Part shown: piece after piece, positions 15,466 through 63,157 of the stretch
Layout of the letters: each line of letters opens with the position of its first letter
Position numbering within the stretch: the stretch's first letter is position 1
From: Toxonevra muliebris
Lineage: Eukaryota; Arthropoda; Insecta; Diptera; Pallopteridae
Assembly: GCA_963691655.1 (NCBI GenBank)
Contig: OY829329.1
Location: 59,657,408-59,721,407, forward strand
Direction of reading: 5' to 3'
Length of the DNA: 64,000 bases
The notes under the pieces: model-generated
Told to the model about the DNA's origin: nothing
The model's database searches: none
The model's input: the letters and a program-made list of their open reading frames with translations, nothing else
Position numbers and translations under genes: made by a program

Positions 15466-15560
15466 ACTCACATTCATAACATTATTTTCTAATAATTTCA
15501 GCATTTCTGCAAATATTTACCTGAAAAGAAACAGCAGATAAGAAAATACAAAATTAATAT
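15466..15560 (-). other. Candidate recursive splice (ratchet) site 3, minus strand
   Basis: On the minus strand, TCTGCTGTTTCTTTTCAG is followed directly by GTAAATATTT, with the junction between 15521 and 15520. A strong 3' splice site is thus fused to a donor-like GTAAAT. A second donor-like GTGAGTATT follows 49 nt downstream (15466-15471). This matches the form of fly ratchet points with a short downstream cryptic exon. No RNA evidence is available here, and the donor GTAAAT is weaker than the GTAAGT consensus. Confidence 0.4.
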
Positions 15561-17369
15561 ATAATATAATTTCAAAATGTTGTTTTTCATACATAATTTG
15601 TTACATATACACAAGTGAATCAAGAAAAGTATTACATACATAAATAATTGAATATAACTAAAACTTACAGCACAAAGTAAAGAAGCTTAAAATACCGAAT
15701 CGAAAAAAAAAAATAAATAGAAAATAAAATTCCAAAAATAAATAAATAAATAGAAGCAAACTTTTTCGCATTAAGCGCATTCTCTCTTCAGGACTTTGCT
15801 GCTGCTGCTGTTGATGTTGCTGCTGCTTCACTTCAATGGCAGAAAATCAATTTTCTTTATGCTTTTCGTGTTCAAAGAAGGAAAATAGAAGAAAAGCAAA
15901 GAAAAATGTATGCCAAGCAGAGAGTATAAGGGTGACTTTCTTTTCTTTTTTTTTTGGGGAGAGGGGGTTTTTCGGGCATTGAAGTTGAGTGTTTTTGGTG
16001 TATGTGTTTGTGTGATGATGATGTAGCATTTTCACATTGTCACCTTCTTTTTTATTTTCTTTTTTCTTTTTTTTTGTAATATTTTCTTTACTATGTAGCG
16101 AATTTAGTTTTCTAGGTTTCTTTCTTCTTCTTCTTTTATTGTTTTTTTTTTTTTTTTTTGCGCTGTACCATTTTTATGGCAAAATGATAAATTACACCAC
16201 ATAAAATAAATATACTGTATGTCGAAAGCATAGAAAAAGGCAAAGATATGAAAGAAAATGCAATCTTAAAGATAAGTTGTGGGTGTTAGATGAGGATTCT
16301 TAAAGTTGATATGTAACTAAAATTAATTGTAGTAATAGTTAAGTATTTATTAAGAAGATTTAATACCAAATATTCATATTAAGGGTACCCCCTCCCCACC
16401 CCCCATTCTCGTGGTCAAAAAACCGATTTTTTTTTATTGTATCTTCGAAACCAAGGGATTTTGTATGGACCTGGACCAGGCATAGCTGATTGAAGGTGAG
16501 TTGGTTTTATACACGAAACATTGTTGCATAAAACTTTAAACGCATTTTTCTCGAAACAGTGTTTTTACAATTGGCGGACTTTGTAACTCAAAAACTATTC
16601 AACCAATCGCTTTGAAATTTTGCAATGTTGTTTAATACATAAATAGCTATAACTTAGACTATTATCAAGAAGATTGATATATATTTTCTATAATTTTCAC
16701 CTCAGTTTTTAACCAAAAATCATTGAATTTTCGAAAAAATACATTCAAAGGTCCGCCATTTTGTGAATTTTTGTCCGAAATGAATAATAATAGTCTATGT
16801 TATAGAAAAATATGTACTTTATCTAATTCTGGTTGATTTTTTGATTTCAGACATTCCAGTGATTTGTAATCGTTCCCGCCACCAAAAAATAGGCTTTTTT
16901 TATTGACGACGAAAATGTTGCTAAAATGTTTGTAAAACAATAATGTAAGAATTTTTTTTTTTGTTTTTAAAGTTTCGAAATACATATGCGCAGATATCCA
17001 AACCTCAAAAATTGATTTTTGTTTATTTACCAGCCCATTGAATATCGCGGAAATTCTAAATCGAAAGAAAATAACAGGGAACACGAAATGAGCTTAGCCT
17101 AAATCATCCTAAAAGAAGGAATGGGTTTTAAGTACACCTGAAACCATATTTATCTATAAATCTCCCTTTGGAACCGTTTATGCTTCCAACTTTAAACTAC
17201 AGAATTCACATCCAAATTATTGCTTCACAAACCGATGCCTCAGTTCCAAAGTGTAACAAATCCGAAATTTGATGAATTTAAGATAAGTATGAGAAACTAT
17301 TCTCGGCACGATTACGCATCATTTCCAAAGAATAACAGGTCGATAACTCAATGTAAAGCGCGGTTCACG
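15561..17369. other. Noncoding, no gene seen
   Basis: AT-rich, with T-rich tracts (16030-16160) and a CTG/TTG-type tract near 15800. Around 16378 a TTAA followed by GGGTACCCCC and text such as CTCGTGGTCAAAA looks like a transposon end, but no partner end was found. Confidence 0.45.
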
Positions 17370-18617
17370 CAAAATTGGCACGCAGGAAAGTTGCTCTATC
17401 TTTTTAACCAGAACACTCAAAATAACAAATAATGCATTAAATGATAAGTTTAAAATTGTGTTTTAATACTATAATATTAAAAGATTTAAATTTCTTTGTT
17501 GTGCAAAAAGTTCCGGGTATTCCTTTTAATGGACCCCATCAACCGTTGAACATTCGCTCTGGATACTTTTGCGGCTATTTGGTTCCATTTTAGTAACATT
17601 GAATTCACATTTTTGACAATACCTGCATTTTTCTTCTACTTATATTTTGTAATAGCCCAGTATTTTTCGATCGGTCGAAGCTGGAGGTAATTGAGTGGAT
17701 TCATATATTTGGGCACTACATCTACTTTATTTGTCTGATACCAATCCATGGTTTTCTTAGAGTAGTGGCAACTGGCTAAATCAGGCCAAAACTTCACTGG
17801 CGAATGGTGGTGACGAACAAATGGCAATAGTCGTTTCGAAAGGCACTTTTTGATGTAAATATCAGACGTCATAGAAGAGGATGTCACAATTGCCCTGGAT
17901 TTGAGACCACAGCTGCAAATAGCCTGCCACACCATTGCTTTCTTTGCAAATTTATCCATTTTTATGTACTTGAATTTTGAGGATACATTGACACGATTCG
18001 TTGCCATATACAATTTTTAACCTGGAAGCTGTTTAAGATCAAATTTTACGTATGATTCGTCATCCACAATAATGCATCCATTGAATTTGGTCAAAACATT
18101 ATTATAAAGAAGACGAGCACGTTTTTTGGCCAGCAAATTATGTTTGTCTGTTCTATTTGGATATTTTATAGCACGATAGCACTTTAGCGCAGCTTTTATG
18201 CGTATTCGTCTAGCAGTACTTTAGCTGGTATTGAATTTTTTGGCACGATCGGTATCCGATAGTCCGGGATTGCTTTTGATGGGCATCAAGATCTTTGCCT
18301 TTAACTTTAGGATGGTGGTTCCCGTTTTGTTCACAAGTTTTTTAGCTCTTTCATCACTAAGAGTTTCTATATATCGTTTTATAACTCTACATACCGTTCT
18401 TTTGGAGATATTTAACACTTTCGCAATCTTTGAACCAGATCACGACGGATTTTCAATAAATTTGTTCACAATCAATTTTCTATTTGCAGCTTCCATTGTG
18501 CACACAAATTTTTAAAAATTTATCAACTACCGTTATTGTAAACAAATCCCAGTAAAAAATTTGTTGTTCTTATGACTAGGGGCGACGTGGTGACCACAAC
18601 AAAGCGTGCCAATTTTG
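17370..18617 (-). mobile_element. IS630/Tc1/mariner element of ITmD37E type
   Basis: A 14-bp perfect inverted repeat, CAAAATTGGCACGC at 17370-17383 and its reverse complement at 18604-18617, brackets a minus-strand transposase relic. The 1.25 kb span is normal for this superfamily. The flanking dinucleotides are not an obvious TA pair, so these could be subterminal rather than terminal repeats. Assignment to the DD37E group rests on residue spacing in the transposase, described in its own entry. Confidence 0.65.
17497..18496 (-). pseudogene. Decayed DD37E-type transposase
   Basis: Reading from an ATG at 18496 there is one continuous frame of about 330 codons broken only by four stop codons, with no frameshift seen. 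An N-terminal helix-turn-helix is visible (SKIAKVLNISKRTVCRVIKR), then a likely first catalytic Asp in VDDESYVKFD, a second in KFWPDLASCHYS, and a Glu in LRPIEKYWAITK. Counting residues gives 37 between the second Asp and the Glu, the DD37E spacing known from the mosquito ITmD37E group rather than the usual Tc1 DD34E. All three catalytic positions survive. Decay by nonsense changes alone suggests a moderately recent death. Confidence 0.75.
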
Positions 18618-20702
18618 TTTTAGTTGCTTGTTTGCTTTAGTTCAGTTGTTACACCCTATTTTTTATCATAAGTCTAGATTATTTTCTTTTCATGCAGTAA
18701 CAACTCCAGTGGTTTCCTTGTGGAACTGAAAATATTTGCACTTGACTTGGTTACACTTTGAAACTGAGGTATCGAAATGGTTTTAATTTTAAAGAAACGC
18801 TTTCCGCACTCTCGCATTCCCATAAAATTATGCGTAATGCGCTCTCTGGCACTTGCTCAGTTTTGGATTGGATGCTCGAAAACATTTTATTCGCATGTAA
18901 TTAATCTCAGCATTTCACCGACTTTTTGTAGTGAAGCATGAAGACAACAATCATTGAAATTTTTGAAGAAAAATCCAAACAATCCCAATTAAAAAAAAGA
19001 AATTTTAATTTTAACAACTCTTTATTAGTAATTTGATAAAATGTCTAATATTTTTTAAATACAACAAATATGAGGAAATTTTTCACAATATCGAACTGCG
19101 ATGTAATTTGTTAAAGCCATAATTTCAATAAAAAACTAAATTGTGTATTAACGAACACAAGGCAGAAGTGAAACTTCTTGTGAACTAAACAAAACACAAG
19201 CAAATAACAAGCAAATGAAATTTTTCAATCGCTACATTTTTTACTTCATTGGCTTGTGTTTCTTAATTTCATTTGCTTTTGTTTCGTTTAGTTCACAAGA
19301 AGTTTCATTTTTGCCTTGTGTTCGTTAATACACAACCAATTTTTTTTTTGGGATTAATGCTAGAACAAAAATTGCAACTCTGTACCGGTAATGTCGATGA
19401 CAATTGTAGCGAACTCTTTTTGTGTGCGACATCTTCACGTAATTCCTTGGACATTTGCGCCATCTGTATGTGAAATGTATAACTGTCATAAACTTTAAGA
19501 TGGCGACGCTACACATTGTTCTTTCTGCCATAGGCGTGTGTGTGTGTGTGTAATTAATATGTTATATTGAATTAAAACTATTTATGAATCGTTTATTATA
19601 TAGTTTGCTCGTGAATTCAGTTACGGAATATTGATATTTAGCCACTCATGCACATTGCTCAACCAAATTATGTCGCATTGCAAACTTACGCGCGACGTCA
19701 CATTCGGTTGGTTTTACTCTAGGACAAGAAAAAAGAAGTTTCACTTCAAAAAAAAAAAAAAAAACTCTTTAGAAAAAAACTGCATCCACCAACTGAAGCT
19801 TGTTCTTGAAATCGAATTCTTTTGTGTTTTGTGTTATTCATGTTTTTCTTGTCATAATCTATAAAAGTTTTATGAAACGGACGGGCAGACAGCCTTCGAA
19901 AATTTCCAATAACATTTTACACACAAATTAATTGATATAAAAATTGCAAATCATATCTAATTAAAACCATTTATTTCAAAACATTCCTTGTGCAATTAAT
20001 TTACCATATGAACAGAAATTACGCTAGCTTTAAGTAAAGTACGGTCAACATTTTGTAGGAGGTACTATAAGCCCTCATTTTCTCTCACTCTCTCTTTCCC
20101 TCTCTCTATCTTTCAGGTGTACACTCTCTCACACAGAAAAGAATACAGAGAAATTATGTTTCTTTGAAGTATAACACACATTTTTAGACTAATTCAATTA
20201 GGCAATTATTTTCTTTAACATAATCTTCAAATAGAAAAAAACAAAATAGCAACAAGGAACAACATTATTATTAGTTAGTCTAATAAATATGTATAGTAGA
20301 AGTGGTTGCAGCAACGGCAGCAGCAGCATAATTACCCACACTTAACAATGTCGCCCATCGTCGTCATCATCATCATCATCGTCATTACAACAATTACTCA
20401 TATCGCAAAATGTCCTCTGATGCGTATACACAATTCTTCTTCGTTTTAATAAGCGTGCATTGAATAACATTTTCTAGTTACTGTTGTTGTTGTTCTCCCT
20501 AGAACTCCCCACATAAATATTTCAATAACTCGTTGCGCCATTGCCGCTAGAGTCATTCAATATGTTGATAATGGTGATGATGTTGGGCATATACGCCATC
20601 GCGTATATTGCTGACCCATATTTACCCAGTTGGAAAGTGTGTGTAATAAAACTGCATTAATTTTATTATTGCAATAGGAGATATAATTATTGATTCTTTC
20701 TG
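18618..20702. other. Noncoding, hairpin inside, no gene seen
   Basis: AT-rich, with a CT-rich tract at 20080-20116 that ends in TCTATCTTTCAG, CAG/CAT repeats near 20310-20390, and the 19141-19335 foldback. No gene is supported. Confidence 0.5.
19141..19335. repeat. Compact foldback, ~80-bp arms
   Basis: The left arm starts TTGTGTATTAACGAACACAA and the right arm ends with its exact reverse complement at 19335. Pairing continues through AAACTTCTTGTGAACTAAAC and GCAAATGAAA, leaving a loop of ~35 nt. It could be a MITE or a transcribed hairpin. It is longer than a typical fly pre-miRNA. Confidence 0.85.
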
Positions 20703-20800
20703 CACTCTCTTTTCGATTTTTTTTTTTTTTGTATGAAGTTTTTCGCTCTCTTAAGATTAAGAGCGTAAAAACTTCATACAAAAAAAACGAAAAGAGAGTG
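20703..20800. repeat. Palindrome with TTAA-GA-TTAA centre
   Basis: CACTCTCTTTTCGA, a T run and GTATGAAGTTTTTCGCTCT are followed by TTAAGATTAA and then the inverted copy GAGCGTAAAAACTTCATAC, an A run and CGAAAAGAGAGTG. Arms are about 43 bp. The T and A runs differ in length. The centre carries two TTAA tetramers separated by GA. Confidence 0.85.
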
Positions 20801-21013
20801 TGGCACAAAGAGCGAGAGAGCACACATACCTCTAAGACAGGGTTTCTCAAACTGTGGTACACGTACCACCAGTGGTACGCAAGGCCTCCAAAGGTGGTAC
20901 GCTAGCAGATGATAGACGGCAAAAGAAGTAAGTGATAGCTTAATTTTATGAAAAATCTATTCCTTGTTTATCGGTATTTATTATTACACTGCAGTTTTGG
21001 TGAGCATAAAGTA

Positions 21014-22622
21014 GGGTAAAGTGGGGTGCCTTTGACACCGGAGCACATTTGGCTATGCAATTTTCGATGTGACCACGCCCAAAAAGGCAAAAATTTTAAA
21101 TGCAGAAAAAAGCTTAATTAGATTTAAAGAAACGTTAAGAACTTTGAAGGTTCTACTTTAACTCTTCTTGGATTAATACGTGTTGTTGTAAATTTGCTAG
21201 CACTGATGTAATTTTCGGCAACTCGTATGTAAGCGTTTTGTGAATTAATTGTAACTGTTTTTTAAAAAACAGTAACAAAATTTGTTAGCACTGGAATTTA
21301 ATGTTAAGAAAATAAAAGTGAGTTTTGTGAAAATAAAACAAGATAAATTGGAAAAGAAGAAAAAAAAATTATCAAAAGACCATTTGGGGCATTTTTGACT
21401 TTTACGAAAAGGGCACATTTAACATAGCCTAGTGGATAGTGCACTAGACTTTCATCTGGGAGGTTCGGATTCGATTCCCGTCTTCGTCTGGTGGTTAATT
21501 TTCATAACTTTCTTATATTCACTATCAATATGAAGTGAATGAGAATTATAAGACCTTGGTTGGTAATGGCAAAACCACCAAGCCGATAAAAAAAATTGCC
21601 ACACCGCCGTTCGGAATCGGCGTTAAACTGTAGGTCCAACTACGTGGTATCACAATGAGCCGTTCAGGCCTAAGTGTGTCTCTCGAAAGCCACTCCAACC
21701 TAACCTAACATGTATCAAATGTTCCCTATATTGCAGATTCACGTATTTACAATACAATTCTAATAGTTTCTGTCTATACATTTTTTAAGATATTGTACGT
21801 AGCAACATAAAGAAAACAAATCGAAGCGAAATTGATGAAACGAAAGTGAAGAGAGCTATTTCAGATATTAAAACATGAAACGGCGACATCAGCTTCCGAA
21901 AAATATGGGGTAAAGAAGATAACATTTAAGGTCCTTCATAATAAATCTTGGAGTTGTCCCCCTTTTCCAACCCAACCCACGTTTCCTGTAATATGATATT
22001 GTCAAACGACATCCTTGCGCGAAATTTCTGTACTGTACCGTAAATGGTTCTAGATATATACCCAAAAAAGCATGTAGTTTGTATGGGAGGTGCCACAACC
22101 ACTTGTAATTTTGAATTCAGACTATGCCTATCTTATGACCAGAGACATAATGCATCATTATGAAATTTTCAATGAAAATTTTGCTAAATAAAGAGCAAAT
22201 CATAATAATAATAATAATAATCAGAACAGAAAAATAAAATAATAGTAATAAAATAATAATGCATCATTGTACAAATTTGTGTCAGTCTCTGCTAAGGTTT
22301 CAGCATTATTTCGAGTTATATACAAATATTTTAATTTTTATACATTTATATAGACGAATGACAAATTTATTAGGCTTTGTCAAATGTGCCACTTTTAAAG
22401 TCAATTGTACTCCGTGCTTGGGACACTTTTGACAAAATGAGTATTTTGGAAAAAGTCCAAAAAAAATAGTAATGCAGTTTTTTTAAAAATATGTTTTTTT
22501 TTTTGAGGTTTGATCTAGAAAAATCAATGTTTTAAAAACAGTAAAATCTTTTGAAATCTATCAATAATTTTCGGATTTACAGGCTTTTGAAAATTAAGTG
22601 TCAAAGGTACCCCACTTTACCC
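21014..22622. mobile_element. TA-flanked element with ~25-bp inverted repeats, inserted in the hAT MITE
   Basis: The left end is GGGTAAAGTGGGGTGCCTTT and the right end, reversed, is GGGTAAAGTGGGGTACCTTT; the match continues through GACAC. TA at 21012-21013 and 22623-22624 is the likely target duplication. No transposase can be read inside its 1.6 kb. It contains a SINE (21426-21705) and an ATA-repeat tract near 22205. Superfamily uncertain; the TA target favours Tc1/mariner or a relative. Confidence 0.8.
21426..21705 (+). mobile_element. tRNA-derived SINE, full length (copy A)
   Basis: The head resembles a tRNA: an A-box-like TAGCCTAGTGG spanning the 5' end and a B-box-like GGATTCGATTCCC about 45 nt on, i.e. 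an internal RNA polymerase III promoter. The body holds GTTCGGAATCGGCGTTA and CTGTAGGTCCAAC, which recur in other copies in this window. The 3' end is CCAACCTAACC. A short target duplication TAACAT lies at 21420-21425 and 21706-21711. It would be transcribed by Pol III and mobilised by a partner LINE. Confidence 0.8.
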
Positions 22623-22724
22623 TACACAAAAACAGTTTTTTTTTTTTTAGTTTTGTGGTACGCGTTAAATCCATATTTTACATTGATGGTACGCGAAAAA
22701 AGCTTGAGAACCGCTGCTGTAAAA

Positions 22725-24449: not shown

Positions 24450-24813
24450 ACACTCAAAGAAATCGTGCGGTAAATTGGACAATAAATTGATCAAAATTTT
24501 TCTGTTGTGCTCAACAGTATTTCCGTTTAATTTAATAGTATTTCTTTTTAGTTTAATAGTATTTCCGTTTAATTTAATACTATTTCTTTTTAATTTAATA
24601 GTATTTTTTTTTTAATTTTATAGTATTTCTTTTTAATTTAATAGTATTTCCGTTTAATTTAATAGTATTTCATTTTAATTTAATAGTATTTCTTTTTATT
24701 TTTATAGTATTTCTTTTTAATTTTATAGTATTTCTTTTTAATTTTTCCCAATAATTGATTTTTATTGCAAACACTATTAAATTGAACTGGCAATTCTATT
24801 TTATTTTGAGTGT
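24450..24813. mobile_element. Minisatellite-cored element with ACACTCAAA termini
   Basis: ACACTCAAAGAAAT at the left and TTTTGAGTGT at the right are inverted, enclosing an array of 21-22 bp tandem units. The plan (ACACYCARA ends, tandem-repeat core, no coding) is the same as for the element at 12716-13795, suggesting one family of non-autonomous elements. Target duplication not evident. Confidence 0.6.
24509..24745. repeat. 21-22 bp tandem repeat, about ten units
   Basis: The unit approximates TTTAATAGTATTTCTTTTTA, with a recurring TTTCCGTTTAA variant that alternates irregularly with TTTCTTTTTAA. Starts of AGTATTTC fall at 24516, 24537 and 24558, giving the period. Confidence 0.9.
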
Positions 24814-25886: not shown

Positions 25887-26025
25887 AAAGCGCTTAGGAC
25901 GGTAGTTTAGAGGATAGTGGATAGTGCACTTGATTTTCACTCGGAAAGTTCGATTCCTGTCTTAGCCTGGTAATTAATTCTCATAACCTTCTTTATATTG
26001 GGAGTATGAATGTATAAACTCGTAA

Positions 26026-27046
26026 TTGTGACTAACTTCATATCTATCATACGCGCCAAAAATACTATAAGAATTAATCTGTCAAATAATTTTCATAATT
26101 TTACAAAAGTGTTTTACTATAGCTGAAAATGTCGAATTTCGTGCCAACAAAACAACATTTACGGGAAGTTTTAATTTGCTCTTCCATTTAAAGAAAAACG
26201 CAACTGAAGCACATTGTTTACTCACTGAAGCTTATCCTGACTGTGCTATAGACGTTAGAATGTGTCAGGTGTGGTATGCCCGTTTCAAAAGTGGTGATTT
26301 TGATGTTGAAGACAGGGAACGTTCAGGCGGCCCGAAAAAGTTCGAAGATGAAGAATTGAAGGCATTACTCGAAGAAGATTCATGTCAAACGCAACAAGAA
26401 CTTGCAGAATCTTTAGGAGTTGATCAATCAACCATTTCTAAACGATTAAAAGCATTGGGAATGATTTAAAAGCAAGGAAATTGGGTGCCGTACGAATTGA
26501 AGCCGAGAGACGTCGAACGACGATTTTTCACATGTGAACTGCTGATTAAACGACAGAAAAGAAAGGGTTTTCAGCATCGTATTGTGACTGGCGATGAAAA
26601 GTGGATACGTTACGATAACCCAAAGCGTAAAAAATCATGGGGACCGCCCGGACATGCATCAACATCAACGGCAAAGCCGAACATCCATGGATCCAAGCTC
26701 ATGCTGTGTATTTGGTGGGATATGAAAGGTGTCATGTATTTTGAGCTGTTGAAACCGAATGAAACGATCACTGGCGACCGCTACCGACTACAATTGATGC
26801 GTTTGAGCCGAGCATTAAAGGATAAGAGGCCAGAATATGAGAATAGACACGACGAAGTTATTCTTCAGCACGAAATGGGAAGTGCTACCCCACCCGCCTT
26901 AAGACACACACTCTTAACACACGCTTTACCTAATAATTTTTTTTGGGTGTAAAATTTAAAAATTTCTTTGATCTAGTTATCTTTGAAAAATATGTCAGTT
27001 GTTATTTTTAATGACAAACATGTTGCTTTATTGTGAGTTTGACTAA
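26026..27046 (+). mobile_element. Internally deleted mariner element (mauritiana-like)
   Basis: About 1 kb of mariner sequence sits inside SINE copy B; full elements are about 1.3 kb. The boundary is inferred from where SINE copy A stops matching. Clean terminal inverted repeats could not be read. The transposase is described separately. Confidence 0.75.
26129..26952 (+). pseudogene. Mariner transposase, broken
   Basis: This would encode a DD34D mariner transposase for cut-and-paste at TA. An ATG at 26129 starts SNFVPTKQHLREVLI, then a one-base frameshift near 26180 leads into FHLKKNATEAHCLLTEAY. The helix-turn-helix region QELAESLGVDQSTISKRLKA is intact, followed by a stop at 26467-26469 where a Gln codon is expected. 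The frame continues with KQGNWVPYELKPRDVERR and the first catalytic Asp in IVTGDEKWIRYDN. The second Asp motif is corrupted (ILQHEMGSATP), and the remaining ~100 residues, including the third Asp, are deleted. By recall it is closer to the mauritiana than to the cecropia subfamily. Confidence 0.9.
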
Positions 27047-27167
27047 AATGAGAATTAGAAGAAAGTGTACAAGTACAAATATTGGTAGGCAATGGCGAAA
27101 TTACCAAGTGATAACAATTTGCCACACTGCTGTTCGGAATCGGCGTTATACTGTAGGTCCAACCATC

Positions 27168-31906: not shown

Positions 31907-33783
31907 TTTTTTTTTTTTTTTTTTTTTTTTGTATTCCTTAAAGTTTATTTACATGTCAATGAAATTAAATGTTAACATGTAAACTATAGTCGCTCCTAAT
32001 CGGAGCATAGGGCGAAAATTAACTCCTTTCATCGTCGTCTGTCCTGCGCCAGCCTTTTTATTTCTCGCCACGTTCCTGTGGTTTTGGCAATCAGCGAGTG
32101 TGGATCGAATCCACGTATTACTAGGGCGTCCTCGTCGTCGTGAGCCTTGTGGGTTCCATTCGGAGGCCATTTTTGAAATGTCGTTGTCGTCTTTCCGTAG
32201 GGTGTGGCCGATCCAGCGCCACTTTCGTCTTGATTTCTATATTTAGTTGGTCGCCAGCTGTTAGTGTCATTAGTTCGTCATTAGAAATAGTGGTTGGCCG
32301 AAAAATTCGGCATATCTTACGCAGACATTTATTAATGAACACTTGCAACTTTCTTGATATATTGTCCGTGACCTTTCACGTCTCGCATCCATACAGCAAT
32401 ACCGGTTTGATACTGTCAGCAAATATTTTAAGTTTCGTGTGCCTTGTTATATTTGGCGAGTATCATACCTTGTTTATCGAGCTTTATTCAGTCGCGACAC
32501 AACATCCGCTTCAGCGCCTCCGTCACAGGTCAGCATGCTACCAAGATAGCAGAATTTTTCAACGTTTTCTATAATGTGCGCGGTGCCTTCTACATTCGCC
32601 GTTAACGGAGTCGTGCACTGGGTTTCCATGAGCATCAGTTTGGTTTTGGACAAATTCACTTTTAGTCCAACCACTTCTGCATTAAGTATCAGCCTGTTTA
32701 TTTTTGATTCGCCGTCAGCTTGTGTATGCGTCATAAAACATATGTCGTCAGCATAGTCCAAGTTGTTCAGTTTTTGGACGGGGACGCCATTGTATACCAT
32801 TCGGGGTTTCTCTATTCGTTTTGGAGAGTAGTACACTATCCAGAACTATAACGAAGAGCAACGGGGAGAGCACGCATCCCTGTCGTACTCCCTTTGAAAT
32901 GCTAAATTTGTCGCCGTTTTTGCCCTTAAATCGGACACTACACTCAGCACTTCCGTAGAGCTCTTGCATAACATTCGCAATTTTGTTTGGTATACCATGA
33001 CTCAACAGAGCACTCCATATTGCGTTCCTTTTAATGTTGCCGAACGCTCTTTCGAAATCTACAAAAAGCAAATAGAGTGGTGATCTCCATTCTACTGACT
33101 ATTCGATTACTATCCTCATGGGGTTTATGTGGTCTACGCACGATCGTTGTGGTCTGTAGCCGTTCTGTTCCCGGCGTAATTGGGTGTTGAGGAAAGGTGC
33201 GATGCGGTCAAGAAGTAAAAAGGCTAAAATTTTCTCGATCGTACTTAATAAGGTTATACCTGTCCAGTTTTTACTTTTGGGAATAGTTATTATCGTTCCT
33301 CCCCTCCTTCCAATCATTCGGAATTTGTCCTACCACCCATGCATTTCGCACAATTGGTTGTAGAGCTGGGGCTAGCACCGCCGATCCATACTTAAGTAGC
33401 TCCGTAGGAATGTTGTCAGATCCAGCAGCCTTGTAATTTTTCAGTTTCGAAATAGCCTTTTGAATTTCGTCTACGGTGGGTGGGTCTGTCGATATGCTCC
33501 TATTTGGGATTCGTCGTCTCTCACTGAATGGGTAGCAGATGCTTCTTCGAAGAATTCCTTCCACCGTCGAAGCTGCTGCTCGTCTGAAGTAATTGTGACC
33601 CCATCACAGTCTTTCAGATTGGGGGTATGTTTGGTTTTGCTTTCACGAGATTATTTATGGCGGTATACACGCCTCTCAAATCATTGCATCGGGCTGCTGT
33701 TTCTGCCTCTGCAGCGATGTTGTTAAAGAAATTCTCTTTAACCTTCTTCGCATTCTTCTTAACTTCCCTCTCTGCGTTGTTGT
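31907..33783 (-). mobile_element. 5'-truncated RTE-like non-LTR retrotransposon insertion
   Basis: The 3' end on the minus strand finishes in an A tail (T run ending at 31930). A 12-bp target duplication ATTGCTTTCGAT flanks it exactly: 31895-31906 and 33784-33795. The 5' part (endonuclease domain) is missing, the usual outcome of incomplete target-primed reverse transcription. Length is 1.88 kb. Confidence 0.93.
31949..33783 (-). pseudogene. RTE-like reverse transcriptase, 5' truncated and frameshifted
   Basis: This would encode the reverse transcriptase half of a LINE polyprotein. In order on the minus strand: the linker before RT (VKENFFNNIAAEAETAARCN), GSDNIPTELLKYG, GITLLSTIEKILAFLLLDRI, LFVDFERAFGNIKR (first catalytic Asp region), GVRQGCVLSPLLFVIVLDSV, and DYADDICFMTH, the YxDD active site, intact. 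Then come the thumb region GLKVNLSKTKLMLM, the C-terminal LQVFINKCLRKICRIF and WNPQGSRRRGRPSNTWIRST, typical of RTE-type proteins such as those annotated in Lepidoptera. It is split over several frames by small indels and has no endonuclease domain, so it is inactive. Confidence 0.9.
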
Positions 33784-44829: not shown

Positions 44830-47800
44830 CTGATGTTTAGTTCACAGAGAGATAATATCTTACGGTATGCTCTTAATTAAGAATCGGTGCGGCGGTGGAC
44901 TTTAATTAAGAACGATATCTTAACATGCGCAGCTGAAATGAAAGAGTTCCGGTACATGTTCTCACTGGCACTAGCTGGTCAACAGGTTGCTGAAGGGAGG
45001 GGGGGGGAAGGAATTATTTAGAAGTAATATTTTTAATAAAAATTAGATATAGTATTTCTTTTATTTTAAATTCTTATTCTTAATAAATCTGATCTGATTT
45101 CCATCCTTTATATCATAGCTTCTTTCGGGATATCAAATGGTATTTAAAATTCAGTACATTCCCATTTTCCACTGATTAAAAAATGTCATAATGCCAATGC
45201 TAATATTTCATTTTTCTAGTTACATACACATATATATGAAAATGCAATTGCATGCGTGCTGCAGTTGTCTCTCATTGGTTAAATTTGCATATCGCTGCAA
45301 AAATGCAACAACGAATTAAAATACAACACAAAGTACGAACTCAAATTCACGAAGGCCTAAAATATAAAACTGCACTAAACAAATTCAGTTCGTGCACGAT
45401 CAAACGACTGTGATCGAACGAATCGTGCCGGGTGAACAACGTGATCTGCATTCACCATCTCACTCACTCAATCTCGCTATGAATAATAATTATTTGCGAA
45501 ATGCTAAAACAAAAAACAAACACTGATATGTGCAATATGCATATGCAAAAACAAAACGTAATACATACAAGTAATCATCCATGTGTGTACAAAGAGTGCA
45601 CTAATATATTATAGCTATTTCATTTTAGCATGTAGAGAGAATGACCAACTGTGCAAAATATATTAATACATACATATGCGCACATGCACATATAACCAAC
45701 AAGTGCAATTAGTTTGTTTTTGTTTCTGTGCAAGCTATATGAGAGTGAGGAGCTTAGCAGCTCTTATAAAGTACACAAACAACTGCACTTTTTTGTCGTA
45801 TTTGAGTAGATAACGCAAAAATGGCGATTGGCAAATTGTTTAATTGTACAGACAAAAAAAAAATTTTAGCAATTTTCTTCTAGACATTTTTAATTTAAAT
45901 ATTAATCAATTATGGCGGGAGATACCGACTGAAAGTGTTGCTAGTTGATAATTAGGTTTATGTATCTATGTTCTTTTCAAAAAAAAAAAAAAAAAAACAA
46001 ATTCGTTACAAAAATATTAATTAAATTTCAATATGGTAAATTACGATTCGAAAAACACAGTCTAGGCCCTCCATGGGCTCTTGTACCACAACAGAAGAAG
46101 AAACTGAATATTCTAAATAATTTTTTCTCTACTCAATTAACATATCGTTTTCTCTTTCGCAATAAATTTGATCCCATAAATTTATTGAGAGGCAATGATT
46201 AAGTCCCGTTAGTTTTCTCTGAGAAAACAGGGAAATTGGGTAATGTTTGTGGCAGCACATTGCGCTGAAAAATATTCTAAGCACATGGTATATGCAGACA
46301 CCTTGATGTTGAAAAGAAGAAAAAGGCAAAGTAGAAAAACTAATTCAAGAAAAATCTGACCAAATTTATTTAGTAACAAAATCAATCTATATGTAAACAA
46401 ACCGAATAAGACTTTACGATAACTATCTACAAATTAAAGTATAACTTTAAGATAGTTTGATATATGTAAAATTTTACAGTAATTTAAAATGAATAGAAAC
46501 GAATATCTATACATGCATACATCTGTATGTATGGATATACATAAATATTTAAAGGTAAATATGTATACAAATGATATACATAGGTATGCTGTTCAAGAAA
46601 ATATGTTTAACTTTGAACTTGTAACCAATATTTTAATAAATAACATTACAAACATAAATAAATACATGCATCCAATACAGAAAGAAGGCGAAAGTGGAAC
46701 GTTAAGATAGCAGCAGAGTAACAACTACAATAACAACAACAATATCAGCAGTGAATGGTACGTGATACTTGTAAAAATATAAAACACAGCAGCAACAACG
46801 ACAGAGACGAATAACGCTGCTTTACATAACTAAAAACGTAAATATGTATGTATATATATAAACATATATATGTATAAGAAACACAGATAGACCAAACACA
46901 TATATACATAGATACCTACATACCTACCTACAAACATAAAAGAAGCGCGTCGTAATGTTTACGAATATTTAATATAGTAAGTATATCGCACACACAAAAT
47001 TTATGTATACACGAGAGTTTGTATATCAAAAAAAAAAAAAATAAATAAAAAAAAAAAAAGTATTACGCGTAGTCGACGTCGACATCGTCATTACCATTGA
47101 ACAAGCAGCAACATCATTATCATCATCAACAGCTTTGGTTGAAGTCGTTATTGCCGTTGCCTTCAACGCTGTCAGCAGTTGTTGTTGTTGTCTTCGTCTC
47201 AAGTTCAAGTTCAAGATAAAATTTATTTCATTTCTTTATTTTCCTTTATTTTTTATTATTTTTTTTTTTTTTTTTCATCCATATATAAATAATATTTTTG
47301 TCTTTCTACAGCTGCTGTTGCTGCTAGTGCTGCTGCTGCTCTTTCACTTTTCATTTTGCAGTAAAAATCAGCAAGTGGCAGCAACAGCAGCAGTCGCTAG
47401 CCCGCAGCCAGCAACATCAGTATGTAACAGCAGCAGCAGCAACAACTCTCTCACACACACACACACACATTTCCTTTCAATAATGCAAAAATTACGTTTA
47501 TTTTCTGTTTTTTAATATTTATTTTTCATAGCAAGAAAATAACTCAAAGCTCCTTTTTTTTGGTGGCATGTGTGCATTTTCGTATTTGCGAATATATATG
47601 CATGTAGTTGTCTGTTAGTGCGATATACAAACCAGTAGAAGAGAGATTCAAATACTTCTTCCTATCTTCTCCCCCAGTCTTCTTCTTCTTCTATTTCAAT
47701 AAATGCATTTTGTTTTTTTGTTTTGTATACTCAAATTTGTACATGCAAAACTTTTATACCATAACAAAAACAAAAAAAAAAAAAATTAATATTTGTCTTT

Positions 47801-48019: not shown

Positions 48020-48625
48020 AATCTCGTCCATGAGCAAAAATTGTCTATGGATAAAATTTGAACAAGATTTTTTTATGAAGAACATTGCTTCCTGGATGAA
48101 AATTCGACTTTGGAGAAAATTAATCTATAAATTTTTTAATGGGCACCATTCGTTTAATAAATTAGACAAAATCCTTTCCTGACCAAAAAAAAAGTATGGA
48201 TTTTTTTTTTTTTGGTTTTGATAATTTGTTCATGGACAAAATTCTTCTGTGGAAAAACTTTTTCTATCGAAGAATTTCATTAACGGATAAAATTCATAAA
48301 TGATTCAAAATTCTCTCCTAGGCAAAATTTGTTTCGCGATAAAATTCGTCTATAATCAAAATTTTTCTAGGGACAAAATTCCCTACCGGGCAAATTTCGT
48401 CTATGAACAAAATTCTTCGCTGAATATTATTTGTCCATGGGCGAAATTATTTCGTCGATAAAATTTGTCTATGGACAAAATTCAGATTTACCTGTGAACG
48501 AAATTCTTTCCTGGGGCAAATTAGTCTACGGATAAATTTCGTTTATGGACAAAATTTAACTTTCAATGAAATTTCTCTATGGACAAAATGAATCTACTGC
48601 TAAAATTCGACTATAGAGAATTTTT
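48020..48625. repeat. Degenerate ~22-bp minisatellite
   Basis: About 25 diverged units close to AAAATTCGTCTATGGACAAA run head to tail, e.g. near 48225, 48300, 48345, 48400, 48460, 48560 and 48590. Unit length wobbles between about 19 and 26 bp. Similar degenerate ATGGACAAAATT-style arrays are common in muscoid fly genomes (recollection, not searched). The array ends in a long T run (48632-48652). Confidence 0.85.
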
Positions 48626-48664
48626 TGAACAGAATTTTTTTTTTTTTTTTTTTGAGATCTAAAC

Positions 48665-48830
48665 TTTTTAAAAAAGTAAATTAAAATAAAATACAATTTT
48701 ACTTACATACAAAATTATAGCTAAATGATAAATTCAAATTATCCAAGGTCTTACCTAGAAAAAAGAAAGAAAAAAATTAATTATATTTTAAAAATAATCA
48801 ATCACTTTTTAATAATTTTATTATAAATTA
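48665..48830 (-). other. Candidate recursive splice (ratchet) site 1, minus strand
   Basis: On the minus strand, TTTTTTTCTTTCTTTTTTCTAG is a near-ideal 3' splice tract followed at once by GTAAGACC, with the junction between 48755 and 48754. The donor GTAAGTAAAA lies 48 nt further (48701-48706). Upstream is AAGTGATTGATTATTTTTAA. This flank, both splice motifs and TTGGAT just after the junction are shared with the site at 62245, so the two are duplicates. In flies such AG|GT sites let long introns be removed stepwise, often helped by a short cryptic exon downstream. Confidence 0.55.
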
Positions 48831-55483: not shown

Positions 55484-56036
55484 GCAGTTCAAATTTTTTT
55501 TCATCAAAACATAAATTTTTACAAACAAAAATGTTTTCGATTTTTTTTATTTTTTAACTTCAAAATTAAAAAAAAAAAATTTTTGTTTTTTAATTAATTT
55601 ATTTTTTCGTAATTCTTTTCATCCTCATTATCATCGTTCACTTTTATCTCGTTGTTAGCTTAACCCAGTAATGCCTAGCGTTTCTGAGCCAGGTTCAAAA
55701 ACAATTTTTTCTTAGTTTCTTTCTTGATCTAGCTACTTTGTGTTCTTGAACAAATAAATCCTAAAAATTTCTTTGTGTATACCTACAAATAAATTTATAT
55801 ATTGTTGTTTCCTTTTTGACACGTTTACGTATTCATTTTTGAGCACATTAGGTAGGCATTACTGGGTTAAGCTAACAACGAGATAAAAGTGAACGATGAT
55901 AACGAACGAGGATGAAAAGAATTACGAAAAAATAAATTAATTAAAAGAAAAAAAAAATTTTTTAGGTAAAGTTAAAAAAAATCGAAAAAATTTTTTTTGT
56001 AAAAATGGATGTTTTAATGAAAAAAAATATGAACTG
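55484..56036. repeat. Long palindrome opened at its TTAA centre
   Basis: The left arm (55484-55659) and right arm (55871-56036) are reverse complements with few differences. Examples: CAGTTC with GAACTG at the outside, TTCGTAATTCTTTTCATCCT with its inverse, and TCGTTGTTAGC with GCTAACAACGA at the inside. They are separated only by a TTAA-flanked 203-bp MITE. Removing that MITE leaves GTTAGCTTAAGCTAAC, a palindrome of about 350 bp centred exactly on TTAA. Confidence 0.85.
55664..55866. mobile_element. 203-bp TTAA-type (piggyBac-like) MITE
   Basis: The left end CCCAGTAATGCCTAGC and the right end, reversed, CCCAGTAATGCCTACC. TTAA lies at 55660-55663 and 55867-55870. CCC-starting repeats next to TTAA are typical of piggyBac relatives. 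No coding. It sits at the dyad centre of the surrounding palindrome. Confidence 0.85.
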
Positions 56037-56414
56037 AATTTTTAATTTTTTTTTTCCAATTTGAAATATTTGAAGTCAATAAAAAAAATTGTACCCCAAG
56101 TGCATTTGTCCCGTCTCTGCTTGTTTTTGACTGTTGAACAGTGTTATCAATTTGGTGTACTCGACATTGCTCTCTAATATTTGGAACACGTTGATTTTTC
56201 CGTTTAAATATTTAAAAATAATTATTATTTTCGTTCCTTGATTAGGACATTTTTTGAGAAAGTCATTTGTCATACTGTTGTCGGCCGGGGTGGTCACTAT
56301 ATATATTGAATTTTATATTTACCGAATAGACTTCAAATTAATAAAAATTTTCACATGAAAAAATTTTAAATTTCTGTGTAAAATTACTGAACCTCTAAAG
56401 GTTAAAATATCGAT

Positions 56415-56714
56415 ACTACAAAGATAAACTCGAAAACTACAAAATCATTCAATTAATTAAAAATATTTTACCAAAGGCTCAAGATACCTAATAAGATCTA
56501 CAAACCTCAAAATTAAGAGACAAATTTTTCCTTTTTTTATTTTTTGTCAAAACTTTTTTGGTAAACTACAAAGATAAATTCGAAAACTACAAAATCATTC
56601 AATTAATTAAAAATATTTTACCAAAGGCTCAAGATACCTAATAAGATATACAAACCTCAAAATTAAGAGACAAATTTTTCCTTTTTTTATTTTTTGTCAA
56701 AACTTTTTTGGTAA
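56415..56714. repeat. Recent 150-bp tandem duplication
   Basis: ACTACAAAGATAAA starts at 56415 and again at 56565. The two 150-bp copies differ by about two or three bases by eye (e.g. AAACTCG against AAATTCG, AGATCT against AGATAT). Noncoding, AT-rich. Confidence 0.93.
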
Positions 56715-59356
56715 ACCCCACTCATACCCTCAACCCTAAAATATTTTCAAATTATGTACTAACATTTGCAATAACATTCAATTATATGTACTCTTCGTGA
56801 TCAATTAAGACTCAGTAGTTGAATTATAGCAATTGTTTTTTATTGAAATTCTTCAATAATTAAAAGTTTACTGTACTGTAAAAAAAAAATATAGAAAAAC
56901 ATTACTATATTGCAATAACAATGCTAACCCACCATCTTCAATTGAAATGCAACTTTGTGCTTCTATTATTGCAGCATTACACATTTATCTCCCTCGCACT
57001 GTCATTGCAAAATTTTCCATACATCTTCTCCACTCTCTTTACAACATCACCCATACATCTTCCTTTACATCAATATCATTCCCAACACATCTTTCAGTAT
57101 ACGAGTATAAAACAATGTCCACCAGCTACATATACATACATACATATGAGTTTGAATAAAGACAACAAAAATTGCATTTAAAATATAACAAACATAGCAA
57201 ATATAAAATACTATATACTCATCCATATATGTATAAAAAAAAACTATGCACTTTTCTACTACTCGTACTAATCATTATTGCTATTTCACTTTAGAGCATG
57301 CAAACATACGAATATAAACACACGTGCATACATATCTACATACGTAAAGTCATTAACGCCCACCAACATTGCAATATGGCAACAAAATTTCTACTTTCTT
57401 TTTTTCTCATTTTTTTTTTTTTGCGGTACTTTGCAACAAAAATATTTTTTCTTCATCTAGTAAATTGTTTTTGTACATAGTTTTTATATTGTTGACTCAA
57501 CTATAAGTAAAAATAACAACAAATACTGTAGAAAAAAAAAAACAACAACCTTAGATGATGAAGTTTAATTTTTCAAACATACCGTTATTGTCGCTCTTTA
57601 CTATTACTACCACCACTTCTCACTCATTCTACTACGCTCAGAGCGCAGTCACACAAACAAGAGTACCATCATATACATATACGCTACCCTCCCTCCCGAT
57701 ATCTCACTCACATCCCATCACAACACAGTCATATGCTCAAAGCATGCATACAGCTTTTGCATCATTTTTTGTTTCTGTTTCTTTTTTTTGCATGAGATGT
57801 TACTATTTCATACTATCCAAGTACGTGCTTGCATCACATACAACATTTTTAGACCGTTTTTACTAACACCACCACCACCACCACCGCCGCTGCTGCTGCT
57901 GCCTTTTTTATGCTAGTACTAAATACAAAAATTTTGTTTTTTTACTGCGAAAAAAAGTGTTTTTTCTGCATTTGCTGTTATTTTCATTTTAGTAGATTTT
58001 TTTTTTATATGAACAAGTTTGTTATTTTTTGTTTCCTGTTTCAAAAGTTAACTTCCGCTTGATGCTTTTTTATGCTATACAACATACAAATATTTCTCTA
58101 CTCTATGTATACGCTATGCTCAGTTCAAGTTTTTTTGCTTTTTTTTTTTTTTAGCTTTTTTCTTAAAGCTAATATAAATTTTATACACAAGTGTATATGT
58201 ATGTATGCATGGCTTTTATGTAGGAAAGTTTTATTCTGTTGTTGTTGTGTTTTGTACCAGTAAAGGGTGTAGCACAAATGCTGCATTCGTTTTCTCTAGT
58301 ATCTACTGCAATATCTTGATTTTATTCTACAACTTCTTCTTTTTTTTATATGTATTAATGTATGTATGTAGGTATGCATACAATTGGCATTTGGCAAAAT
58401 GTTGGGCGTGTTTGCAGCAAAAATGCAGCTTTAGCAAAAATGTAAAAAAATAAAAATATATTTCTACATATTCGTACATATGTGCAAATATATAAATTTA
58501 TATGAAATTGTATGCATTCATTTTGCAGTTGTATATGCTTTTCCATCTGTTTGTTTTTGTAATTTAATATTACGTATTGCATTTAATTATTTAAAAGGAA
58601 TCGAATCGAAAACTTTCTGTTGAATTATAAAAAGGGGAGCACAGTTTGTTTATAGCTACTATGAGGAGAATTCATAGGAATTGCATTGCTGCACAAAAAA
58701 AAAAATTATTTTAAAGGGTATTTTGGGATTTGTTGTAAGTTTAGCCTTCCAATCGAAGGAGTGAGTATGTTGTATACTTACGAAACATACATGTATAATA
58801 CTTACAATCAATACTAAGAAAATTAAAGGAATTTTGATTAGTTCTGCAGCGAAATATCTCGTATACTAATTAAAATATTTAATTTCAAACTTTTTCCGGG
58901 TACTAAAAAAGAAGATTGGATATTCATACGAAAAATTGGCTGCAAAATCATAAATATGTATAAAGTGTAGGCATGGTTCTTACCCAATTACTTTCATATT
59001 TGAGTTTGCTGTTGAACAAAAATATATATGCAAAAATTTCAACTAAATATTAACAGAAGTTATTACGCGAAGAGACAGAATAACGAACTGATAAACAACG
59101 CTAAATCGATTCAGGAGTAGACGCAAAAATTCTTGATGAAAGCTACAAATGAAAGGACAAAATTATATAACCTTGCCTTATTAGTTGTAAGGTATTTGTA
59201 GAGCAGTATTCTAACAAATGAGAAAGAAAGTAACAACTCTTTGGAATATACCCGGTGCACAGAAGACTTCAGGCTATTGAGAGATGTACCATGAAAGTGA
59301 TCACCTCATAAGGCTATCCACCATAAATAAATTCAAAAATCTAAAATTTTCACATA
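56715..59356. other. Noncoding, no gene seen
   Basis: AT-rich with ACATAC-type and CAC/CTG repeats (57870-57905) and T-runs. Open frames are low in complexity. Nothing recognised. Confidence 0.5.
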
Positions 59357-59513
59357 CACTTGTGGTCACATAATTAAGCCACTAGAACATTATTTTATGC
59401 TGAGTTTGAAAAATATTTTGTGTTAGTAGTCCAAGCGGTACCATTAGTAGCCTTAAAAAATATTAAGAGCAATTACAATTGTGAGTGAAGGAGTAAGATT
59501 AGAAGTGGATATA

Positions 59514-60800
59514 CAGGGTGACAATTGTAAAGTGACGCAAGTTTAATACTCTGCAGCAAGCTTTGCCATTTACCGTTACTTTAATTTAAAAAGCAAATTC
59601 ATTCATCATTGGCTTTGCATTTAATTTCATTTGAATTTTTGTTATTACATTTTGAAATTTCCATAAAAAAGGGACAAGGAAAATATTCGTCGTGAAATTA
59701 TGAAATTTCATTTGGCAAATTATAGTAGCCGCCAAATTGCAAAGGCTTTCAATTTGTCAAGTCGTACGGTAGACCGAGCTATTATTCAATATAATGAAAC
59801 TGGGGGTTTTGGAGATAGAGACCGGGGAAAATTTTCAACAGTTGCCACTACTGGTTTAACAGAAAAAATTCGTAAACGAATCAAGCGAAATCCAAGGCGC
59901 TCAATGAGAAAAATCGCTAAGGAAGTGGGAGTAAACCGTGAAACAGTGCGAATCATTGCAAAATCAAAGCTTAATCTTAAGCCGTACAAGCTCCGAAAAG
60001 CTCAAGATCTGACACAAAAAGAAAGATTTGCGACTGCAAAGATGCAAGGCGTTGCTACGTTCCTCCGTGTTAAAAAATGTTGAAAATATCTTGTTTACAG
60101 ATGAAAAAATTTTCACGGTTGAACAACATTTCAATGCGCAAAATGACCGAATGTGGCTAACATTATCATCGCAACAAAATAGGACTGTTGGCCGAGTTCA
60201 AAAGCCAGCTTCCGTTATGGTATGGGCTGGAGTTTCCGCTAATGCCAGAACCCCTCTAATATTCGTTGAAGAGGGTGTTAAAATTTACCAGGTTGTTTAT
60301 CGGAGCATTTTAAATGAACATGTTCTTCCCTGGGCCCAAGATACATTTGGAAATGAAAACTGGACTTTCCAGCAAGATTCTGCACCTTCCCACATGGCAA
60401 AATTAACGCAAACATGGATAAAAGACAATTTTTCTGGATTCATAACATCTTAAGAATGGCCACCATACTACCCAGACTTGAATCCAATGGACTACTCTAT
60501 TTGGAGTGTTTTAGAGAGTAAGGCTTGTGCATCTCAACACCACAGTCTGGAGTCGCTGACAAATTCATTAGAGAAAGCCTGGACTGAAATTGATCAGGAA
60601 GTCCTGCGGCGAACAGTCCTACGATTTCCGGATCGATTGAAGGCATGTATGCAGGCTAAAGGAGGTTATATTGAATGAGGTGGGGTTCAAATGAATGCTT
60701 ATATATTCAGCAATGTTAACACTTAATTGTACTTAATGGAAGTACGTCCTTTTGAAAATAACTGCTGAAATGTGTGCGTCACTTTACGATTGTCACCCTG
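59514..60800 (+). mobile_element. maT element (DD37D), copy 1, nearly full length
   Basis: Ends are CAGGGTGACAATTGTAAAGT and, reversed, CAGGGTGACAATCGTAAAGT, continuing through GACGCA. TA flanks are at 59512-59513 and 60801-60802. At 1287 bp it has the normal length for this group. It was inserted into the Bari/Tc1-like element. It is one of the younger elements here; its transposase needs only a few changes to be explained. Confidence 0.92.
59700..60678 (+). pseudogene. maT (DD37D) transposase with one frameshift and one stop
   Basis: Cut-and-paste transposase of the mariner/Tc1 superfamily. The N-terminal helix-turn-helix SRQIAKAFNLSSRTVDRAI and a second one, SMRKIAKEVGVNRETVRII, are intact. 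A single-base frameshift near 60010-60030 separates them from the catalytic part: ILFTDEKIFTVEQHF (first Asp), SVMVWAGVS, FQQDSAPSHMAKL (second Asp) and YPDLNPMDYSIWSVLES (third Asp). I count 37 residues between second and third Asp, the maT signature. A TAA at 60451-60453 interrupts FITS/EWPPY; the other copy has Gln there. The original start probably lay just upstream of 59700, since frame and charge continue as DKENIRREI to a stop. Confidence 0.92.
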
Positions 60801-60932
60801 TATAATTAAGTCATTTTATATTCTTTCGCAATCAACTTGACTTAGTGCACATAAATTCCATTAAAAACCAATAAAATTGATCATTTACACATTTCTGTAT
60901 ATTTGAGTTGAACAATTGTTGATTTTGGTTGT

Positions 60933-61880
60933 GATGGGCAAAAATTAGAGTTCCACTCCCTCGAAGAGGAAGTTCATTTGGAAAACTTTTCAGAACCTTA
61001 AGATTATTGCAAAAGACGTGGAAGAGCTAGCTTTTTTTACGTGAAAAAGTAGTCGATGACATAAGATACTACAAAAAATTCAAATCATTTCACAATTTGC
61101 AAAGCAAAAAAACACTTAAAACGTCTCCAGCTTGATTAGGCTCAGAAAAGTGAACGATTTCTTAACTTTCATCAAACTAAGATCACAAATGGACTTCGAT
61201 TAAAATTTTAAAATATCAGCCAGAACAATACGCAAGCGATTAAACGAAAAAAAAATATTAGGACGAATTAGCTGATATAAACCCAACAGTCCACAAACAA
61301 AAAAAATATTGCGCAACGTATTCAGTTCGCAAAACGATATCTCCACTAGTACCAGCATTTTTGAAAAACAATTGCTTGGAGCGATGAATCCAAATTAAAT
61401 GTGTTTGGGATCGATGGAAGGCTCTTTATTAGGCATCCATAAAATACTGAGCTGAACTCAAAATTTATTAAAAAAAAAAACTGTAAAACATGGGAACCTT
61501 GGAGTTTCACTTCATCTAAATCGATAGCAAAATTACTGATGAAAAGTACAAAGGCATCCTTAAAAACCATCTTCTCTGAGGATACGGTGAAAATTTACCT
61601 TTGGGTTGGATCTTTCAGCATGATAACGAACCGAAACACACATATCGTAAAATAAAAATTCTCGAGTGGCCAGCCCAAAGTCCATATTTAAACCATATAG
61701 AAAATCTATAGAGTATTTAAAAAAAGGGTCGTGGCAGCGCAAAAATCTGCAAATAAGGCTTCCTTATGGGCTATCATTCAGGAGGTATAGAATCAAATCA
61801 CTGCTGCCCAATGCTCTGGTACTAGTCGAAGAGATGTACAGAAATTATCAGGCAAAAATGGTTTCCACAAAGTACTAACA
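60933..61880 (+). pseudogene. Bari/Tc1-like transposase relic
   Basis: An ATG at 60933 gives MGKN followed by a stop, in the place where Tc1-like proteins start. Readable patches: SARTIRKRLNEK (helix-turn-helix end), AWSDESKLNVFGIDGRLFIR with the first catalytic Asp, [13 protein letters not shown] with the second, and [17 protein letters not shown], where the usual SPDLNPIENLW has become [10 protein letters not shown] but keeps its Glu. About nine residues between the second Asp and the Glu are missing, and stops and frameshifts abound. It would have been a ~340-residue DD34E transposase. Confidence 0.8.
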
Positions 61881-62161
61881 GTACCAAAGATAAAATTTCA
61901 GTTCAAAATTAAAAATCATCAAACTTAATATTTTTAAATATTTTTGTTTAGCATATGACTTAATTATATGACCGCAAATTACATACGATAATTTGGAAAA
62001 ATTTTACATATTTGACATTATAACTGTTTATTTCTTTTATAATTTTAAATATTGAACTGTTATTTATTTATTTTACTATTGGTTTTGTTTTTTTTTTTTT
62101 GAATAGAAACTTTATATTCTTCTGCTCATAAGTATATGACTTAATTGTATGTCTACAAGTG

Positions 62162-62335
62162 TAAGTCGAATTAAAATATTTAAATTTGCCCAATTCACTT
62201 ACATGAGAAATTGAAGTTTAACGAAAAAAATCCAAATATCTTACCTACAAAAAAAAAAAACAAAAAAGAAAACAATTGCATTAAAAATAATCAATCACTT
62301 GTTAATAAATAATTAAATTAAAAATATTTATATAG
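62162..62335 (-). other. Candidate recursive splice (ratchet) site 2, minus strand
   Basis: On the minus strand, TTTTGTTTTTTTTTTTTGTAG is followed directly by GTAAGATATTTGG, with the junction between 62245 and 62244. A donor GTAAGTGAAT lies 42 nt downstream (62197-62202). The upstream block AAGTGATTGATTATTTTTAA is identical to that of the 48755 site. The region starts right after the Bari/Tc1-like element. Confidence 0.5.
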
Positions 62336-63157
62336 GTATAATATTGCATGCGACTAATATTAGGTGCTATTAATGATATTTGTTTTAAAATAAGGTTTTG
62401 AGAAAGAGAAAAAGTAAATAAATTTCATAATACAAATGCACATAAAACAATAAAAACACAAAAACAATTTCTTTAGGAAAAAAAAAACAAACAAACCTCA
62501 ACGACCACGAAAGTGTAATGGTAAAACATAAACAAATTAAGGTGCCCATAGTGTGACAATTTCGTCATAGACGCATGCGTCTTCAATTTTATTGTTTGGA
62601 GATATTGTCATTGCACATAAATTGTTGTTGTTGGTTTCTATTTTGTGTTCATATTTTTCGGGTTTTTTTTTTTGTTTTTGGTTAAGTAAAAAAATTGCTC
62701 GCTTTTTAAAAGCTACATATGTATAAGCAGAGATTAAGTCATACCTGCAGAGAGAAGAGAAACTTCTCCGTCACATTAGTTAGAAAATTCAAGTTGAATA
62801 TTACCGTGTATGTGTGTGCAATCACAGGAAAACAAAGGCAAAAATACCGTTAATAGGAAAAACAAACATTATTCATAGTACGTACATACCTAACTACAAT
62901 ACCAACAAAACAAAATGTTGTTTTAAAGTTTTGAGAAACAACAAACGTGCGTAGTCAACCAAAAAAAAACAAACAAAAAAACCAAGGCGCAAAAAATATA
63001 TTCATACTTGCATACTACCAAATCTAAAGAAATTAAATTAAGTTAGTAGTAAGTAAGCAGTAGAAAAGTATTCCATACAATGACAATCAGTGGCGTTGGC
63101 AACAGGGGGAAACCAACGAAGAATTAAAGCCACAAATATCCAACTAGTTTTATTTTT
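62336..63157. other. Noncoding, no gene seen
   Basis: Apart from the splice-like site at 62745, AT-rich sequence with A and T runs. No gene. Confidence 0.5.
62739..62795 (-). other. Strong 3' splice-like site fused to GTATGA, minus strand
   Basis: On the minus strand, CTAACTAAT (two branch-point-like motifs) is followed 15-20 nt later by TTTCTCTTCTCTCTGCAG and then GTATGACTT; the junction is between 62745 and 62744. This could be a ratchet site or an ordinary exon start. The sequence after it has early stops in all frames, so a coding exon is unlikely. Confidence 0.45.

Follow-up and report, generated by a model that had tools for sequence, protein, structure and literature searches.

Work on the zero-nucleotide recursive splice sites of Drosophila is reportedly that of Burnette (2005), Duff (2015) and Joseph (2018). 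These intronic ratchet points juxtapose an acceptor and a donor behind a pyrimidine tract and need a cryptic exon of ~50 nt (the recursive splicing exon, or RS-exon), whose closing donor usually falls short of the ratchet donor in strength (PMC8605326). Recursive sites are present in most fly introns longer than 40 kb, typical segments measure 9 to 15 kb, and nearly all measured segments exceed 1 kb (PMC6110457). A scan with a human matrix and an 80% cut-off counted, in fruit fly introns longer than 50 kb, 2.196 ratchet-point sites per 100 kb of intron strand versus 0.101 on the complementary strand, with mosquito, bee and beetle likewise enriched (PMC2773006). Recursive splicing is well documented in Drosophila, while for other insects PMC2773006 offers a sequence scan only. 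Here we describe a 64,000-nt stretch of the genome of the pallopterid fly Toxonevra muliebris (contig OY829329.1, positions 59,657,408 to 59,721,407; the whole stretch is called the window). Its minus strand carries three sites, A (62245), B (48755) and C (15521), which are quite likely intronic ratchet points of a minus-strand gene with exons outside the window or unrecognized within it. Two of them, A and B, look like duplicated modules.

Every AGGT on both strands was scored with a matrix for juxtaposed acceptors and donors, the frequencies of which approximate Drosophila usage, without training on this species. All four minus-strand junctions that the first-pass annotation had read as signs of recursive splicing (62745, 62245, 48755 and 15521) are present in the sequence. 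Its claim that the plus strand has no equally good site held as well: among the 135 AGGT sites on the plus strand the top score is 14.0, at a site with a poor donor (GTGTAC), while 5 of the 109 minus-strand sites score 15.7 to 19.6. At a score of at least 15 the minus strand thus has five sites and the plus strand none, and each of the five, namely the four junctions just mentioned and 46928 (15.9), which the annotation had missed, combines a pyrimidine tract and a juxtaposed AG/GT core above chance. Local Markov shuffles of orders 1 and 2 (300 each) served as the null and contained on average 0.35 and 0.34 sites of at least 15, respectively; five were reached in 0 of 300 for either order. The three observed sites of at least 16 were matched by none of the 300 first-order shuffles and by 0.7% of the second-order ones. 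The reversed and the complemented window each hold one site of at least 14 and none of at least 15. On a normalized scale of the variable positions, A reaches 0.93, B 0.88 and C 0.787, the last just below the 0.8 cut-off used in print with other matrices.

Short downstream cryptic exons, which the annotation had mentioned as frequent at Drosophila ratchet points, are found at A, B and C, while 62745 has none. Over all five sites, a donor that could close an exon of ~50 nt is present at three and absent at 62745 and 46928. We list the core score together with a joint score, which adds to it the downstream donor closing a short RS-exon (donor window +20 to +100; Table 1). Three minus-strand sites and no plus-strand site have a joint score of at least 24; the next minus-strand site scores 17.7, the best plus-strand site 19.0, and the controls reach at best 21.9 (reversed window) and 18.4 (complemented window). 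In second-order shuffles, 0.047 sites with a joint score of at least 24.2 are expected, and three such sites occurred in 0 of 300. With this matrix, the ratchet donor scores above the RS-exon donor at all three sites, by a margin of 0.2 bits for C and 0.4 for A.

Table 1. Candidate ratchet points, their predicted RS-exons and related features of the window. All lie on the minus strand; the slash marks the junction.
Feature	Position	Junction or sequence	Description	Core score	Joint score	Donor strength (bits)
Ratchet point A (candidate)	62245..62270	TTGTAG/GTAAGA	Pyrimidine tract and TAG acceptor; GTAAGA donor at 62244-62239	18.4	27.2 (highest in window)	9.2
RS-exon A (cryptic)	62203..62244	CAT/GTAAGT	42 nt; closing donor with GT at 62202			8.8
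20-nt word upstream of A	62281..62300	AAGTGATTGATTATTTTTAA	Contains the YURAY-like branch candidate TTGAT			
Ratchet point B (candidate)	48755..48780	TTCTAG/GTAAGA	Pyrimidine tract and TAG acceptor; GTAAGA donor at 48754-48749	19.6 (highest in window)	26.4	9.2
RS-exon B (cryptic)	48707..48754	TAT/GTAAGT	48 nt; closing donor with GT at 48706			6.9
20-nt word upstream of B	48788..48807	AAGTGATTGATTATTTTTAA	Identical to the copy at A			
Ratchet point C (candidate)	15521..15546	TTTCAG/GTAAAT	Pyrimidine tract and CAG acceptor; GTAAAT donor at 15520-15515	15.7	24.2	8.8
RS-exon C (cryptic)	15472..15520	AAT/GTGAGT	49 nt; closing donor with GT at 15471			8.6
Acceptor-donor look-alike	62745..62770	CTGCAG/GTATGA	Strong tract; no RS-exon donor	16.5		

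Modeled on the Drosophila work, each site would first be recognized as the acceptor of a 42- to 49-nt cryptic exon, aided by the downstream donor. Splicing into the site would regenerate a GT donor exactly at the junction, which would outcompete the RS-exon donor and splice onward to the next site. The intron would thereby come out piecewise, in stretches of 13.5 kb between A and B and 33.2 kb between B and C, and the mRNA would retain no additional nucleotide. We infer from these sites transcription of the minus strand, use of the junctions and a gene spanning the window; the long minus-strand intron across the window that the first-pass annotation had proposed would follow from the three sites and is partly supported. 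The segment from A to B has a length expected from the 9 to 15 kb seen in flies. Three sites on a single strand of a 64-kb stretch have a probability of 0.11 if the published intron rate applies, and of 1.7e-5 under an approximate intergenic rate of 0.074 per 100 kb. The latter rate was derived from a ratio of 29.7 in PMC2773006 and mixes two of its matrices, and the cut-off of that paper differs from ours. In their juxtaposed acceptor and donor, their pyrimidine tract and their RS-exon of ~50 nt with a weaker donor, the three sites resemble Drosophila ratchet points (PMC8605326, PMC6110457), as they do in their strong strand bias and in the occurrence of several in one long, apparently non-coding stretch. 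They differ in that A and B have a 20-nt upstream word in common and give the appearance of a duplication, in that one segment measures 33 kb, and in being known from sequence alone.

Several points weigh against the identification of A, B and C as ratchet points. The score cut-offs were fixed after the scores were known. The normalized core score of 46928 (0.81) exceeds that of C, so it is the RS-exon donor, and not the core by itself, that distinguishes C from look-alikes. Of 300 shuffles, 4.3% contain one or more sites that equal C, the best single shuffled site (28.4) lies above A, and the site behind the best joint score of the reversed control has a tract, a core and a donor at +57. Among random minus-strand positions, 11.7%, 6.5% and 3.6% are followed at +20 to +100 by a donor that reaches 6, 7 and 8 bits, respectively, so that the donor of RS-exon B is not rare by itself. 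The comparison of ratchet and RS-exon donors takes in the nucleotides that precede the junction, and these would be supplied by the upstream exon once splicing has occurred. The segment from B to C is longer than the usual fly segment, perhaps because transposons have inserted there or because a weak site was overlooked; no comparable site was found between the two. No convincing host exon was seen among 10 open reading frames (ORFs) scanned against Pfam and 59 filtered ORFs of at least 45 aa outside the transposon stretches, an unsystematic search in which the 59 were read by eye, itself weak evidence. Exon-like acceptor-donor pairs favor neither strand (13 minus, 17 plus).

Two sites with good cores were set aside. 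Within 150 nt of the junction at 62745 no donor exceeds 1.1 bits, and the junction lies 500 nt from 62245; it was rejected because an RS-exon donor is absent and because nearly all fly recursive segments are longer than that (PMC6110457), and it is probably a decoy. The four junctions of the first-pass annotation are therefore not equivalent. The site at 46928 lies in GTAG-like sequence and is followed by a donor of 5.1 bits at +8, by none above 1.2 bits beyond +12 and by none above 0.4 bits at +20 to +100.

An alternative is that the AG/GT sites open ordinary or alternative exons retained in the mRNA, with A and B as a duplicated pair of microexons. The precedent is Ubx, in which two 51-nt microexons, m1 and m2, are processed by recursive splicing (PMC8605326); as in Ubx, two recursive sites, each with a short exon, would follow one another within a single long intron. 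RS-exons A and B are also multiples of three in length, and each has one open phase, the same in both. While the Ubx microexons are expressed and ultraconserved, the interiors of RS-exons A and B are unlike in both length and sequence and have a cryptic appearance: they agree in just 19 of 35 aligned columns, and their peptides are dissimilar by eye. RS-exon C is not a multiple of three and has stops in all three frames, and the G+C content is low (24% in A, 20% in C). Because the ratchet donors score above the exon donors, skipping would be favored. Retention as exons is unlikely.

The kinship of A and B was absent from the first-pass annotation. The 20-nt word AAGTGATTGATTATTTTTAA is found upstream of both, starting at −56 from the junction at A and at −53 at B; C is without it. 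It occurs at exactly two places in the window, and still at two when up to 3 mismatches are allowed, while 100 shuffles had a mean of 0.09 and never two. The A of its TTGAT lies at −47 at site A and at −44 at site B, but further branch candidates exist (−58 and −37 at A, −23 at B, −34 at C), so that a branch-point role of the word is only a guess. With gap columns excluded, A and B are identical throughout the word (20 of 20 columns), the core AGGTAAGA (8 of 8) and the RS-exon donor (7 of 7); they agree in 24 of 39 columns before the word, 21 of 31 between word and core, 19 of 35 in the interior of the RS-exon and 12 of 16 after its donor. The alignment was optimized, and the lower identities may therefore approach the background for such A+T-rich DNA. 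BLASTN, run without a low-complexity filter, aligned the two at 77% over 97 columns.

How far the likeness reaches outside word, core and donor is uncertain, as tests of single segments gave mixed results. The segment from +6 to +100, donor included, was equaled by 0 of 500 shuffles and had a P of 0.005 versus random segments of the window. The corresponding P values versus shuffles and versus random window segments were 0.95 and 0.23 for −140 to −56, 0.85 and 0.73 for −300 to −140, 0.16 and 0.07 for +6 to +40, and 0.32 and 0.06 for +60 to +220. A second test gave a P of 0.0065 for −95 to −56 and of 0.062 for +6 to +110 without the donor. There was no sign of a larger duplication: from −1700 to +3000 of A and −3000 to +3000 of B, with low-complexity sequence excluded, the shared 14-mers were the seven of the 20-nt word and a single off-diagonal one. 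A third copy of the module was not found in the window (next nhmmer match, E 0.62), and A and B fold no better than shuffles (z of 0.51 and −0.16). The pattern of the word was found at 8 places in 257 billion bases of prokaryote genomes, in unrelated bacteria, which we take as chance, and exact-pattern scans for relatives had 0 matches in viral contigs.

An exact 20-nt word, identical cores and identical RS-exon donors make A and B look like duplicated modules. We infer that they are related, most simply through an old duplication within the intron, with constraint keeping the splice elements. As the main alternative to a duplication, they might be copies of a mobile or repetitive element carrying splice-like sequence, which would be compatible with a ratchet function: the window is rich in transposons and repeats, and among the bin pairs sharing 20-mers A and B are, as far as orientation is known, the sole same-strand pair more than 1 kb apart. 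Such an origin is nonetheless distinctly improbable, given the lack of a third copy in the window and the restriction of full identity to the word, the core and the RS-exon donor, with 54 to 75% elsewhere. It is very improbable that all three sites resemble splice sites by chance in T-rich DNA, be it intergenic or intronic. The sequence here is indeed rich in A and T, 46928 and 62745 are examples of good cores that lack an RS-exon donor, and shuffles occasionally yield one site like C. Yet no shuffle, reversed, complemented or plus-strand control produced such a set, and the exact word recurs at nearly the same upstream distance for two sites.

If A and B are ratchet points, it is tempting to assume, tentatively, that duplication can raise the number of ratchet points within a single giant intron, with A and B, at a distance of 13.5 kb, as paralogous modules of recursive splicing and the exact 20-nt word as the mark of a third required element. 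The duplicated module would comprise the 20-nt upstream element, the pyrimidine tract, the AG/GTAAGA core and an RS-exon closed by AT/GTAAGT; after duplication, the acceptor-donor core, the RS-exon donor and the word would have stayed unchanged while the remainder diverged. It is the exact survival of the word beside lower identity elsewhere that would mark it as required, perhaps as the region of the branch point or as the site of a specific protein. Elements of this kind are already known; the interest lies in the apparent duplication with its exact word. No report of duplicated ratchet points was found in a literature search of partial coverage, which does not prove their absence: the strings "duplicat" and "paralog" have 0 occurrences in the main texts of PMC8605326 and PMC13149111, and the available parts of PMC8906543 and PMC13105047 hold nothing that bears on the matter. 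If the proposal is true, the word would be a third ratchet-point element not described in the literature examined. With three clean candidates, among them an apparently duplicated pair, such a locus would make it possible to test directly how ratchet points originate and which sequences they need beyond AG/GT.

The surroundings of the sites are repetitive. In the Pfam scan, 6 of the 10 ORFs matched transposase, helix-turn-helix or reverse-transcriptase families, as would fit an intron but equally intergenic DNA; Rfam gave 0 matches at the gathering score, and no tRNA was found in the window. Ratchet point A is flanked by inverted, nearly identical copies (97 to 100%) at 60023-60804 and 63304-64000, ~2.5 kb apart, which, from their helix-turn-helix matches, we take to be a Tc1-like transposon. 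In one pre-mRNA these copies could pair into a long hairpin, looping out 62245. A 107-nt inverted repeat (4786-4892 and 63153-63259) is 97% complementary over a distance of 58 kb, with 45 nt between its second copy and the transposon arm at 63304. A degenerate tandem array with a 17-nt unit like CAAAATTTGTCTATGGA follows ratchet point B at a short distance downstream (48224-48631).

Farther from the sites, a mariner-type transposase (HTH_48 and Transposase_1) lies at 26071-26952, where a stop codon splits two adjacent ORFs. Reverse-transcriptase pieces of an element like a long interspersed nuclear element are found on the minus strand at 32477-33098, in two overlapping ORFs in different frames; the RVT_1 match there (32477-32845) is below the curated cut-off. 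A homology search with one reverse-transcriptase ORF of the window gave no match at E 0.001. A foldback element at 2091-3664 has several nested inverted-repeat arms with 83 to 95% complementarity, and a 150-nt unit is present at 56415-56716 in two tandem copies that are 99% alike.

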